From a virus, in IMG/VR virus record IMGVR_UViG_3300042482_000107, positions 1-38,978 of that record: a stretch of 38,978 nt of DNA. The stretch is one strand, 5' to 3'. Made by a program: the position numbers and the translations under genes. Below, piece after piece: positions 13,118 to 16,315 of this stretch (the first letter of the stretch is position 1; each line of letters starts with the position of its first letter). The notes under the pieces are model-generated. The model searched no databases. It was not told the origin of the DNA and saw only the letters and a list, made by a program, of their open reading frames with translations.

Positions 13118-15025
13118 TTATCCGAAGTTTTCTTGCCATTGCTCCGCAAACATCTCATCGAGATTAACTGCAAGGCGTTGGTTCATCTGAGCACGAGTTG
13201 CCCAGCGGTTGTTTGCGTATTGCGATGTTCGGCTTGCAGATTGCATTAGTTCGCGGATGCGAATGATGGCAAACCACAAAGCCATAACGGTATCTGTCTT
13301 GCCTCTAGTCTCTGGCTTCCACGTTAGTAGTTGCTGAGTCAAGGCTTTGATACCTTCAGAACCTTCAGATGAAGGTAGTTCTAATATATTGTTTTTCTGG
13401 AACTTCTCTTCGCGGATAGTGCCAAAGAGGTTAGACATTGATGCAACACCAAACGAAGTGTCCCATTTGTTTTTCCCTGTGAAGTGTGCGTCAAGGCGTA
13501 CGCCGTATCCAGCAAGCCACCCTCGTAACTCTTCGTCAAGGGAATAGGCTTTTTGGTGGGCGTTGATTTCAACTCGGAACTCTTGTGGCTTGTATTTAAT
13601 AACGAGTTCTTCAATTGTTGCCCGAATCTTTTGTGGTGTGGGTTCTTCCATGTTGACACAATCCAACACATAAATCTTTCCATCTGCCCTGTTGTATGCA
13701 ACTACTACAAATGCAGCATTACCTGCCATAGCAGGGTCAAATCCAATTACAGTATGTAAACCCTCAACCTGAGGTGGGTGTCCAGCAGTACCAGCCTTTA
13801 GTGGTCCTCGCTTGCGCATCCCATTGGTCGCTCCTTGCACGAGTGCTGGCGGGAATATGGAGTCCTCTTGGATGTCTTCTTGCTGGTAAACGAGTGCCCA
13901 TGTTGATGGCGTAACTTCGCTGCGTCTTTTAAAGAGTGCTGGTCCATCCCACTTGGGATAGTACCCGTTTTCTTTAGGTGTGTCAGAATCGCCATCCCAG
14001 GCAACATCTGACTCAGCCCAGAGCGTAGTCCAATCTTCCGTCTTCTCCGCATAGTCAAGTACAGCAGGCATGCCCATATAAGTAAACGGAGTCCTACCAC
14101 CAGACCAATGCTTAGGATTACGAAGTTCTTTATAAAGGTCATTTGCGGCAATCCGTGTCCCTACAACTAGTAACTTACCATTCTTGCCCAGACGGGTAAT
14201 AACTTCCTTCTGCAACCAGTCCATCTGCTTATCCCACTCGTGGGCGTTGGCAGTAGTAATGCAGTCGTCCAAAATAATCAAGTCGGCGCGGGCACCGTAA
14301 ATCTGACCGCCCATACCTAGTGCTTGAAGGGTTGGGTCCTTCTCACTAGAATTACGCGCATCGCCCCCAAGGTAGACAGTATCGGTACGCCAAGTATCAG
14401 CGTCTTGTTTCCAACCGCCCTCAGGACCGTAAGCGGTCTGCAGTTTGAGCCAGCGGGGATGTGACAATCGTTGCTTGATAGCATATACGAACTCGCGTGC
14501 CTTATTCAATGTCTTCGATACCACGATGATGCGGATGTTAGGATTGAGAGCGATGCGGTAAGTTGGGTAGTTCACCGTGATAACGGTGGACTTAGCGTGC
14601 TCAGGTGGCACGTTCACCAGTAGGCGGTTGTTCTCGCCTGGTTCATAAATCATAGAAGGGTGGAGCCAAGAAGGTTCATTACCCTCCAGCAGGTCTATCC
14701 AATCCTGATGATGTGGAAAAACTGTCTGGTCAAAAAACATCTTAGAGAAATCGGCAAATGGGATAGATTCCTTCTCAAGACCCATGGCATCGAAGGATTG
14801 CTTGCTTCCCTCTTCCTTTGCCTCTTCCAAGGCACGGGCGAACTCAGGGTCACGGTTCATCCATTGGCGCACCGTATCTGGTTTCTTACCCGCCGCAACC
14901 ATAGCGGCTTGGACACTCACGCCCTCTTTGACCCTAGCAAGAACATTTGCCTTGGCTTGGGTAATCTCTTTGACGAGGTGGTGTTCCCCGCCCTTTTTAA
15001 ATCCTTTATGCGCTGGTGTTGCCAC
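13118..15025 (-). CDS. terL: Terminase large subunit with N-terminal helix-turn-helix domain
   Basis: 635 residues from the GTG at 15025, which has AAAGGAG upstream; an upstream in-frame start at 15109 lacks a ribosome site. This motor pumps DNA into the prohead and cuts it. The ATPase shows a Walker A-like VPPEHAKST (139-147) and Walker B LIILDD (249-254). The RNase H-like nuclease begins with IGFDPAMAG (Asp430 as first metal ligand). Residues 28-72 (ARVKEGVSVQAAMVAAGKKP, then TVRQWMNRDPEFARALEEA) look like the helix-turn-helix of small terminases. No separate small subunit gene was found, so this may be a fused form. First gene of the leftward unit. Confidence 0.93.
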   Translation of the reverse strand: MATPAHKGFKKGGEHHLVKEITQAKANVLARVKEGVSVQAAMVAAGKKPDTVRQWMNRDPEFARALEEAKEEGSKQSFDAMGLEKESIPFADFSKMFFDQTVFPHHQDWIDLLEGNEPSWLHPSMIYEPGENNRLLVNVPPEHAKSTVITVNYPTYRIALNPNIRIIVVSKTLNKAREFVYAIKQRLSHPRWLKLQTAYGPEGGWKQDADTWRTDTVYLGGDARNSSEKDPTLQALGMGGQIYGARADLIILDDCITTANAHEWDKQMDWLQKEVITRLGKNGKLLVVGTRIAANDLYKELRNPKHWSGGRTPFTYMGMPAVLDYAEKTEDWTTLWAESDVAWDGDSDTPKENGYYPKWDGPALFKRRSEVTPSTWALVYQQEDIQEDSIFPPALVQGATNGMRKRGPLKAGTAGHPPQVEGLHTVIGFDPAMAGNAAFVVVAYNRADGKIYVLDCVNMEEPTPQKIRATIEELVIKYKPQEFRVEINAHQKAYSLDEELRGWLAGYGVRLDAHFTGKNKWDTSFGVASMSNLFGTIREEKFQKNNILELPSSEGSEGIKALTQQLLTWKPETRGKTDTVMALWFAIIRIRELMQSASRTSQYANNRWATRAQMNQRLAVNLDEMFAEQWQENFG

Positions 15026-15097
15026 GTTTTTCTCCTTTGTGGCAGAGTCCCCCCGCCATACAGTTCTATGTTTGTACAGTAGTCTGTAACAGAGTGA

Positions 15098-15119: not shown

Positions 15120-15137
15120 GAACTATTTTACTCTCTA

Positions 15138-15166
15138 TATATATATAATCCGTTCAAACAGGTAAA
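15138..15166 (-). promoter_or_regulatory. Weak candidate leftward promoter
   Basis: On the minus strand TTTACC (15166-15161), a 17-base spacer and TATATA (15143-15138) give a poor -35 with an acceptable -10 about 115 bases before the terminase start. The TATATA lies in an AT run where matches are easy to find. The palindrome 15163-15178 overlaps the -35. Confidence 0.3.
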
Positions 15167-15178
15167 ACGAACGTTTTA
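15163..15178. promoter_or_regulatory. 16-base palindrome, candidate operator
   Basis: TAAAACGAACGTTTTA consists of 7-base arms around AA. It overlaps the -35 of the weak leftward promoter at 15138-15166 and lies about 140 bases upstream of the terminase start. Suited to binding a dimeric repressor such as an HTH protein; inference only. Confidence 0.4.
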
Positions 15179-15331
15179 TAACAAACTATCTTATTACTTA
15201 ATAGAAACAGTTAAATAACAGTCTAACTGCGTCACTATATACAGAAATATTTTTAGGTAGAGATACTCTACTTATGTTCGACCATAGTTAATAAAGTAGG
15301 GGTCATACAGGATAGAACAATATATATATAC

Positions 15332-15371
15332 CAGACAGTACTGCGTGTACTGTATGTCTGTGTACTGTCTG
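15332..15371. repeat. Inverted repeat CAGACAGTAC/GTACTGTCTG with an extra internal copy
   Basis: CAGACAGTAC (15332-15341) and GTACTGTCTG (15362-15371) are perfect 10-base inverted repeats. Between them is a further copy, GTACTGTATG (15347-15356). The core TACTGT therefore occurs three times in 40 bp. GTACTGTATG recurs exactly at 19401-19410. The arrangement suggests clustered protein-binding sites. Confidence 0.5.
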
Positions 15372-15444
15372 CCCTAGGCATGCGCCCAGTTAAAAACATG
15401 TAATACCCAGACTGAAAAATAAATGGATATACTCGGGCTGTCCG

Positions 15445-15474
15445 TCTATAAACTATTGCCTTGGCAATTGTCAA
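15445..15474 (-). promoter_or_regulatory. Leftward sigma-70-like promoter
   Basis: Minus strand TTGACA (15474-15469), an 18-base spacer and TATAGA (15450-15445); an alternative reading is a 17-base spacer with TTATAG. The -35 is a perfect consensus. It would start the terminase-virion transcript near 15437, giving a leader of about 410 bases. The spacer holds a perfect palindrome (15455-15468). Confidence 0.6.
15455..15468. promoter_or_regulatory. Palindromic operator candidate inside promoter spacer
   Basis: ATTGCCTTGGCAAT has perfect 6-base arms around TT and fills the spacer next to the -35 of the leftward promoter. Bound protein would block RNA polymerase. A related arm pair, AATTGGC/GCCAATT, occurs at 15685-15704. 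Candidate binders in this genome are the HTH protein (19988-20368) and the WhiB protein. Confidence 0.5.
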
Positions 15475-15565
15475 CCCCTCACCTGTCGGTACGCCAGCCG
15501 ATGCAAGCGTGTCTAAAGCCACGCTGTGCATGCTGTTCGTCCAACGCAATAGCCTGTCTGCACAG

Positions 15566-15585: not shown

Positions 15586-15642
15586 ACTGTTTGCCATGCT
15601 TGATTGCGCCCTTGGTTAATCGCCTTTGCCTTAATGGGCCCT

Positions 15643-15660
15643 TGCGCGCTCTAGCGCGCA
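15643..15660. promoter_or_regulatory. GC-rich palindrome TGCGCGC-TCTA-GCGCGCA
   Basis: Perfect 7-base arms around a 4-base centre, very GC-rich against an AT-leaning background. It lies immediately before the long fold at 15665-15767. It could be an operator, cruciform or RNA hairpin. Confidence 0.45.
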
Positions 15661-15664
15661 GGCA

Positions 15665-15767
15665 TATCGTAATCACTCTTGTCAAATTGGCAAGCCTGCC
15701 AATTGTCCACCTAGAGCGTCTGCCTATTCGGCAGACAGGCGTAGAGTGACAAGGTGATTTACGAATA
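15665..15767 (+). ncRNA. Candidate structured leader RNA with three-way-junction fold
   Basis: An outer stem joins TATCGTAATCAC (15665-15676) and CTTGTCA (15678-15684) with 15747-15767 (TGACAAG, then GTGATTTACGAATA), about 19 pairs with three single-base bulges. It encloses hairpin AATTGGC/GCCAATT (15685-15704, loop AAGCCT) and hairpin GTCTGCC/GGCAGAC (15718-15736, loop TATTC), the latter with flanking GC and CTA/TAG pairs. It ends about 50 bases before the first rightward gene, so it may be a leader element, a small RNA or a cruciform at an origin. The pairing is seen directly; transcription is inferred. Confidence 0.4.
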
Positions 15768-15819
15768 GCCTGAAAGATTGGTGGCTCTCACCAACCTACA
15801 AAACAAAGGAGTAAGACAA

Positions 15820-16269
15820 GTGAGTGAATACACAAACCAAGGCATCTCAGTAACTACACAATGCTATGACTGCATGATGCTTGATACTGTATGCCTGAAC
15901 TGCGAGGAAGGTAAGGAAGCGCGTGATAGTGCAATTGCCCATCAACTCGTTGATGAGGGCAATATGCAGTACAAGCGAAACTGGTTCCATGTGACAGAGC
16001 CAAGCGGTCATGACTGGACATCATCTAGTACCGTACAAAGAGCGATACTGGATGACGAGGGCAACGAGGTTGACCACATCATGCGTGAAGAGTACAAACT
16101 CCCAATCGTACTACTTCAAGACGGTGGTGTGTACGAGGAACTATGGGAACTGGATGACATGCGCCAACGTGACCGTGAGACACAGTGCCCATGGTGCAAC
16201 ATCATGACACGTAAAGACATGAACGATTGTCAAGATTGTGACAAGCCGTTGGAACTAAATGTAAGATAG
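15820..16269 (+). CDS. Double zinc-finger protein, first gene of the early unit
   Basis: 149 residues from the GTG at 15820, which follows AAAGGAG; the frame extends to a TTG at 15778 without a ribosome site. Two cysteine clusters frame an acidic middle: CYDCMMLDTVCLNC near the start and CPWCNIMTRKDMNDCQDC near the end, each able to bind one zinc. Not recognised as a known family. As first gene after the control region it would be expressed earliest, so a regulator or host-interaction protein is plausible. A strong hairpin (16281-16315) follows its stop. Confidence 0.7.
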   Translation: MSEYTNQGISVTTQCYDCMMLDTVCLNCEEGKEARDSAIAHQLVDEGNMQYKRNWFHVTEPSGHDWTSSSTVQRAILDDEGNEVDHIMREEYKLPIVLLQDGGVYEELWELDDMRQRDRETQCPWCNIMTRKDMNDCQDCDKPLELNVR

Positions 16270-16280
16270 TAAGAAGGGCA

Positions 16281-16315
16281 GATAGTCCCCCTACGCCTTG
16301 CGTTAGGGGGCTATC
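16281..16315 (+). promoter_or_regulatory. Strong hairpin after the first early gene
   Basis: GATAG/CTATC, CCCCCT/AGGGGG and ACGC/GCGT stack into about 15 pairs with two single-base bulges and a 3-base loop. No T-run follows on either strand, so it is not a standard intrinsic terminator. Likely roles are RNA processing, mRNA protection or pausing before the SSB-like gene. Confidence 0.5.

Follow-up and report, generated by a model that had tools for sequence, protein, structure and literature searches.

What is the multi-branched fold that stands just ahead of the first early gene in IMG/VR virus record IMGVR_UViG_3300042482_000107, and what might it do there? The stretch of DNA analysed in full here, referred to as the window, is this virus record of 38,978 bases, in which early and late genes are split around a control region. 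The late genes, read leftward, occupy the stretch up to 15034 and include the terminase large subunit (13118-15034, minus strand; phrog_38, 5e-73), the divergent neighbour that bounds the control region. The early genes run rightward from 15820 and include an exonuclease, a DnaB-like helicase and a Toprim protein. The first of them (15820-16269, plus strand) has a GTG start and encodes a cysteine-rich, zinc-ribbon-like protein of 149 aa without a Pfam or PHROG match, and a Shine-Dalgarno-like AAAGGAG can be read at 15806-15812 of the plus strand. The fold, at 15665-15767, sits inside the control region with the terminase (minus strand) on its 5' side and the first early gene (plus strand) on its 3' side. 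A preliminary description had portrayed it as an outer stem of about 19 pairs with bulges, closed around two perfect hairpins and devoid of coding potential, and had suggested that it could be a structured leader sensing a ligand or protein, a small RNA or an origin element.

Folding of positions 15655-15780 gave -51.8 kcal/mol on the plus strand (z -6.07) and -55.3 kcal/mol on the minus strand (z -7.07), energies matched on either strand by none of 200 shuffles. The predicted structure confirmed the described architecture and its coordinates, and no plausible gene lies over the fold. An outermost closing stem, formed on the plus strand by CAGGC (15659-15663) and GCCTG (15768-15772), extends beyond the coordinates first given, and its pairing is maintained in relatives as GGGC/GCCC and AGGC/GCCT. 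Within it, folding and the relatives' sequences define the long outer stem P1, whose 5' strand (15667-15684) carries single-base bulges and ends in the nearly invariant inner 5 bp, TGTCA (15680-15684), and whose 3' strand (15747-15766) begins with TGACA and is variable thereafter. P1 encloses hairpin P2 (15685-15704, plus strand), in which AATTGGC and GCCAATT flank the loop AAGCCT, the junction strand GTC (15705-15707), the arm P3 (15708-15741) and the junction strand TAGAG (15742-15746), which reads AAGAG in most relatives; GTC is invariant in the alignment. Both hairpin stems of the window, AATTGGC/GCCAATT and GTCTGCC/GGCAGAC, are perfect, and refinement of the second arm revealed an additional storey, so that P3 comprises a lower stem CACCT/AGGCG with one A-C pair on the plus strand (G-U on the minus strand), a 5-nt bulge AGAGC, the upper stem GTCTGCC/GGCAGAC and a loop TATTC.

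Related loci were gathered with the first early protein and the terminase (98 loci), and more were added by DNA patterns from the conserved core, which together allowed 30 distinct copies of the fold to be read out. A covariance model of the core, R1, found 49 loci with a single strong copy apiece (5 + 44; 79-96 bits), a few of which may be overlapping pieces of one contig, and no copy in about 80 related loci without the fold. Every copy lies between the terminase and the first early gene in constant orientation, and the fold is present even in L103, whose first protein is only 32% identical. The plus-strand consensus runs from TGTCA through arm 1 (AATCG...CGATT) and GTC to arm 2, which consists of GCCC[T/A], a bulge of 3-5 nt, GTCTG..., a loop, ...CAGAC and [A/T]GGGC, and then continues with AAGAG and TGACA; the outer stem that closes this core varies in sequence and has at least one single-base bulge. 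The junction strands GTC and AGAG are nearly invariant, as is the base of both the outer stem and arm 1. In one locus, L134 (3600-3720, minus strand), CCTTGTCA is apparently duplicated and the outer stem is lengthened to more than 20 pairs.

By terminase, the closest named relatives are LanE43AprE7 and LanE43AprF5 (OX376640, OX376641; 63% identity), which are 'Ca. Planktophila' phages (PMC10202952) with genomes similar in size to the window's, at 39 kb. On the basis of this kinship, the host of the window is probably a freshwater actinobacterium. The model search found no copy of the junction in the F5 stretch around the terminase (L200), and the phage collection gave no DNA match. Host assignment through a DNA pattern in genome contigs was abandoned, as its 11 matches all lacked the fold and were chance.

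Covariation across relatives had been put forward as the check on this fold, and among 15 distinct cores it did not refute the pairing. Watson-Crick pairs made up 98.9% of 357 pair cells, with 4 cells unpaired, and 8 of the 24 pairs were changed on both sides (23 cells) and none on one side only, a both-sided count that 0 of 500 shuffles reached. When the partner was slid by one to three columns, pairing fell to 28-38%. P2 has changed on both sides in three of its seven pairs while remaining 100% paired, P3 has done so in 5 of 12, and the outer stem covaries too, with TCAC/GTGA in L018 versus TCGC/GCGA in its close relative L103. The three-armed fold is real and evolutionarily maintained.

Compensatory changes of the kind that mark a conserved RNA were therefore found, whereas G-U intermediates on the transcribed strand were not: there are none on the plus strand among the 357 core cells, while three cells read as G-U when taken on the minus strand. 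Most of the double changes flip a pair (C-G to G-C, U-A to A-U), a change with no route through G-U. A single template switch at a DNA hairpin produces flip-type double changes, a process that has been described for RNA genes (PMC8794818). The exclusively Watson-Crick pattern therefore agrees with constraint at the DNA level and is still compatible with RNA. The fold is in this sense a warning case, in which perfect covariation without G-U intermediates may stem from template switching or DNA-level constraint, and covariation by itself is thus no proof of RNA.

Searches against known elements agreed with the earlier statement that the fold matches no riboswitch. A covariance-model search of the window against 4227 Rfam families returned nothing at the gathering threshold, known small ribozymes included, and nothing was found at E<=5 in four loci (L001, L104, L109, L117); nor does the junction sequence resemble any three-way-junction riboswitch known to us. 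A hammerhead was considered because of the GTC at the junction and rejected, the CTGANGA/GAAA core being absent. ARAGORN predicted 0 tRNA or tmRNA genes, and we found no intrinsic terminator (GC-rich hairpin followed by a T run) at 15640-15800, no sigma-70 promoter (-35/-10 with 16-18 nt spacing) on the plus strand at 15600-15800 and, by eye, no conserved -10 after GTGACA in the sequences from which the distance to the terminase was taken. Literature searches retrieved no description of the junction element.

The position of the fold bears on its role. In 29 phages the early start codon follows the core by 51-68 nt, despite intervening sequence that differs entirely between groups, while the distance to the terminase is a loose 303-987 nt; orientation and start-codon spacing are fixed, as for a cis-acting leader. 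The best hairpin between the junction and the ribosome site is M4 (15776-15798, plus strand), with the sequence AGATTGGTG GCTCT CACCAACCT. Across the family, the non-Watson-Crick pairs of hairpins in the M4 slot, read on the plus strand, are 40 G-T versus 15 A-C, in a set of 47 distinct hairpins that includes some chance ones and was scored neutrally as to strand. Such an excess of G-T is what evolution as plus-strand RNA would predict. The steady start-codon spacing and the M4-slot wobbles tie the fold to the start of the early gene, beside an apparent plus-strand leader RNA. Directly before the first early gene in L006, L020, L122 and L172 is a hairpin GTATTCAC-NNNNN-GTGGATAC, with variants GTTTTCAC/GTGAGAAC and GTATTAAC/GTTGATAC, in which a U-G pair is kept while adjacent pairs change; it is a candidate protein-binding RNA hairpin.

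Among the three roles first proposed, a leader is the best supported, because the start-codon distance is fixed, the terminase distance is loose and the M4-slot hairpin evolves in the manner of plus-strand RNA; a small RNA on either strand and a DNA or origin element each retain some probability, given the lack of plus-strand G-U pairs and the lean to the minus strand discussed below. Our best reading is that the fold represents a new family within a known class, the structured leader. We give an even chance to the fuller proposal that it forms the core of a structured leader at the 5' end of the first early mRNA, on the plus strand, bound by protein and setting early expression, in a family of freshwater actinophages. 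Under this proposal, the plus strand would be transcribed across the junction from a promoter upstream, and the transcript would present the three-way junction, the small second hairpin, the Shine-Dalgarno sequence and the start codon in that order. The rigid junction with its conserved joining strands may be bound by a host or phage protein, or by the transcribing polymerase, and could then set expression of the early gene through antitermination, protection of the message or ribosome access. Counting against the proposal are the lack of plus-strand G-U pairs in the core, in which it differs from the adjacent hairpin, the similar folding of both strands, the signs of a minus-strand lean given below, an upstream region in which we detected no promoter, and the fact that the fold does not follow the identity of the first gene.

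Several other features were observed in and near the control region. Iteron-like direct repeats GTGTACTGTATG / GTGTACTGTCTG with 15-bp spacing occupy 15330-15371 next to ATATATATA tracts, and similar CAGACAGT/ACTGTCTG motifs recur in relatives; they are a possible operator cluster or origin. The region also contains an AT-rich tract, as well as a perfect palindrome, ATTGCCTTGGCAAT (15455-15468), surrounded by a block (15439-15489) that is kept in many relatives while its surroundings change. The most widely conserved part, 15132-15180, contains TATATATATATAAT and an inverted repeat CGTTC...GAACG and may be a divergent promoter and operator. A long hairpin with single-base bulges but no T run, GATAGTCCCCCTACGC...GCGTTAGGGGGCTATC, lies at 16279-16314, past the first early gene and ahead of the second.

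The alternative that survives best, which we nonetheless regard as doubtful, is that the fold acts as DNA, its inverted repeats forming a cruciform or a single-strand hairpin, for instance to start replication, as an origin or initiation site next to the iteron-like repeats and the AT-rich tract. The nearly exclusive Watson-Crick pairing and the flips without one-sided intermediates are consistent with this, but template switching gives the same pattern in genuine RNA hairpins. GC and AT skew flip sign in the divergent control region around the fold, where the direct repeats and the AT-rich tract also lie; this flip is, however, fully confounded with the change of transcription direction, and a spacing of 51-68 nt to a start codon would be unexpected for an origin.

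Unlikely, in our estimate, is a minus-strand noncoding RNA read leftward from near the early gene's start, with the junction as its 5' domain. The junction's few non-standard pairs come from about five lineages (the window and L018; L003 and L122; L130; the L131 group; L141); they are A-C when read on the plus strand and G-U when read on the minus strand, and no lineage has the opposite type. Single mismatches inside helices, counted over all leaders, are likewise 13 A-C versus 3 G-T (4 to 1 in the coding control). Upstream of the early gene, positions -340 to -140 are rich in pyrimidines on the plus strand and hence in purines on the minus strand, the reverse of what the early genes' coding strand shows. 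In one group RNAalifold gave an energy of -130 on the minus strand versus -102 on the plus strand. The rare mismatches and the pyrimidine-rich flank lean to the minus strand and, with the lack of plus-strand G-U pairs, keep both a minus-strand RNA and a DNA element as candidates. However, these counts are small, pairs predicted on both strands have 13 G-T and 13 A-C wobble cells and thus show no preference, and no conserved minus-strand promoter was seen upstream of the junction. Folding z-scores did not differ overall, both strands folding about equally well relative to shuffles, and unpaired A content was uninformative because many leaders include coding sequence. Relatives also fail to keep the long closing helix that pairs CTCACTTGTC with GACAGGTGAG in the minus-strand prediction, which is missing in the near relative L018; a similar helix of another group, CACACACAGTCGG with CCGACAGTATGTG, is broken in 3 of 10 members and incompatible with the hairpin preceding the ribosome site.

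A trans-acting small RNA, cut out of the early leader and working independently of it, would suit a compact, self-contained domain in an early position whose slot is filled by different folded modules in relatives, but the fixed start-codon spacing points to action in cis and no conserved unpaired seed exists beyond GTC and AGAG, making this improbable. Least probable of all is a functionless palindrome made and kept perfect by template switching in replication, which would explain the flips and the absence of one-sided changes but not the invariant unpaired joining strands, the constant orientation and spacing, or survival across phages whose first gene product is only distantly alike.

The proposed leader can be compared with several known systems. 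Like structured 5' leaders and three-way-junction riboswitches of, for example, the purine or TPP type, the fold combines a variable outer stem with near-invariant junction strands and precedes a start codon, a second hairpin lying between it and the ribosome site; unlike those riboswitches, its junction has no Rfam match and no G-U pairs. The put sites of phage HK022 are RNAs in the leader of an early phage operon that form strong Watson-Crick hairpins and bind polymerase to prevent termination. The fold shares such hairpins and, as proposed, the early-leader role, but put consists of two adjacent hairpins rather than a three-way junction, and we know of no sequence resemblance between the two. 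The packaging RNA (pRNA) of phi29 type is also a phage RNA with a three-way junction, and a terminase adjoins the fold; the Rfam search did not return pRNA, however, and the spacing of the fold is fixed to the early gene rather than to the terminase. Single-strand initiation sites of the G4 origin type, used in phage and plasmid replication, are likewise about 100 nt of folded DNA with several hairpins and a strand polarity, but the fold lies at a fixed distance from a start codon, and no initiator or primase site was identified here.

Relatives without the fold often hold other strong folds in the same slot. L002 has a different fold ahead of a first protein 87% identical to that of the window, and such swaps indicate that the fold is not matched to the gene behind it. 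The control regions of L010, L016 and L066 contain a different large three-armed fold, CTTGGCAAGTCAGAC...TTGCCAAG, whose arms are compensated, and those of L021, L055, L056 and L096 have an insertion ahead of the first early gene, made up of additional sequence and the strong two-way terminator hairpin AAAACCCCCTAGAAATAGGGGGTTTTTTT. We tentatively raise the idea, which we hold to be rather doubtful, that the slot is an exchange site for rival folded regulators, at which close relatives have the same gene preceded by three-way or multi-arm modules that are unrelated to one another. Literature searches found nothing on early-gene control in these phages, which are akin to those of 'Ca. Planktophila', a member of the Nanopelagicales and among the most abundant bacteria of fresh water. 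Being compact, conserved, present in a single copy and set at a constant distance from the first early gene, the fold offers a ready target for testing. If the slot is indeed an exchange site, a nucleic-acid cassette open to swapping, and not a protein, would set early expression, immunity between phages or escape from a host factor.
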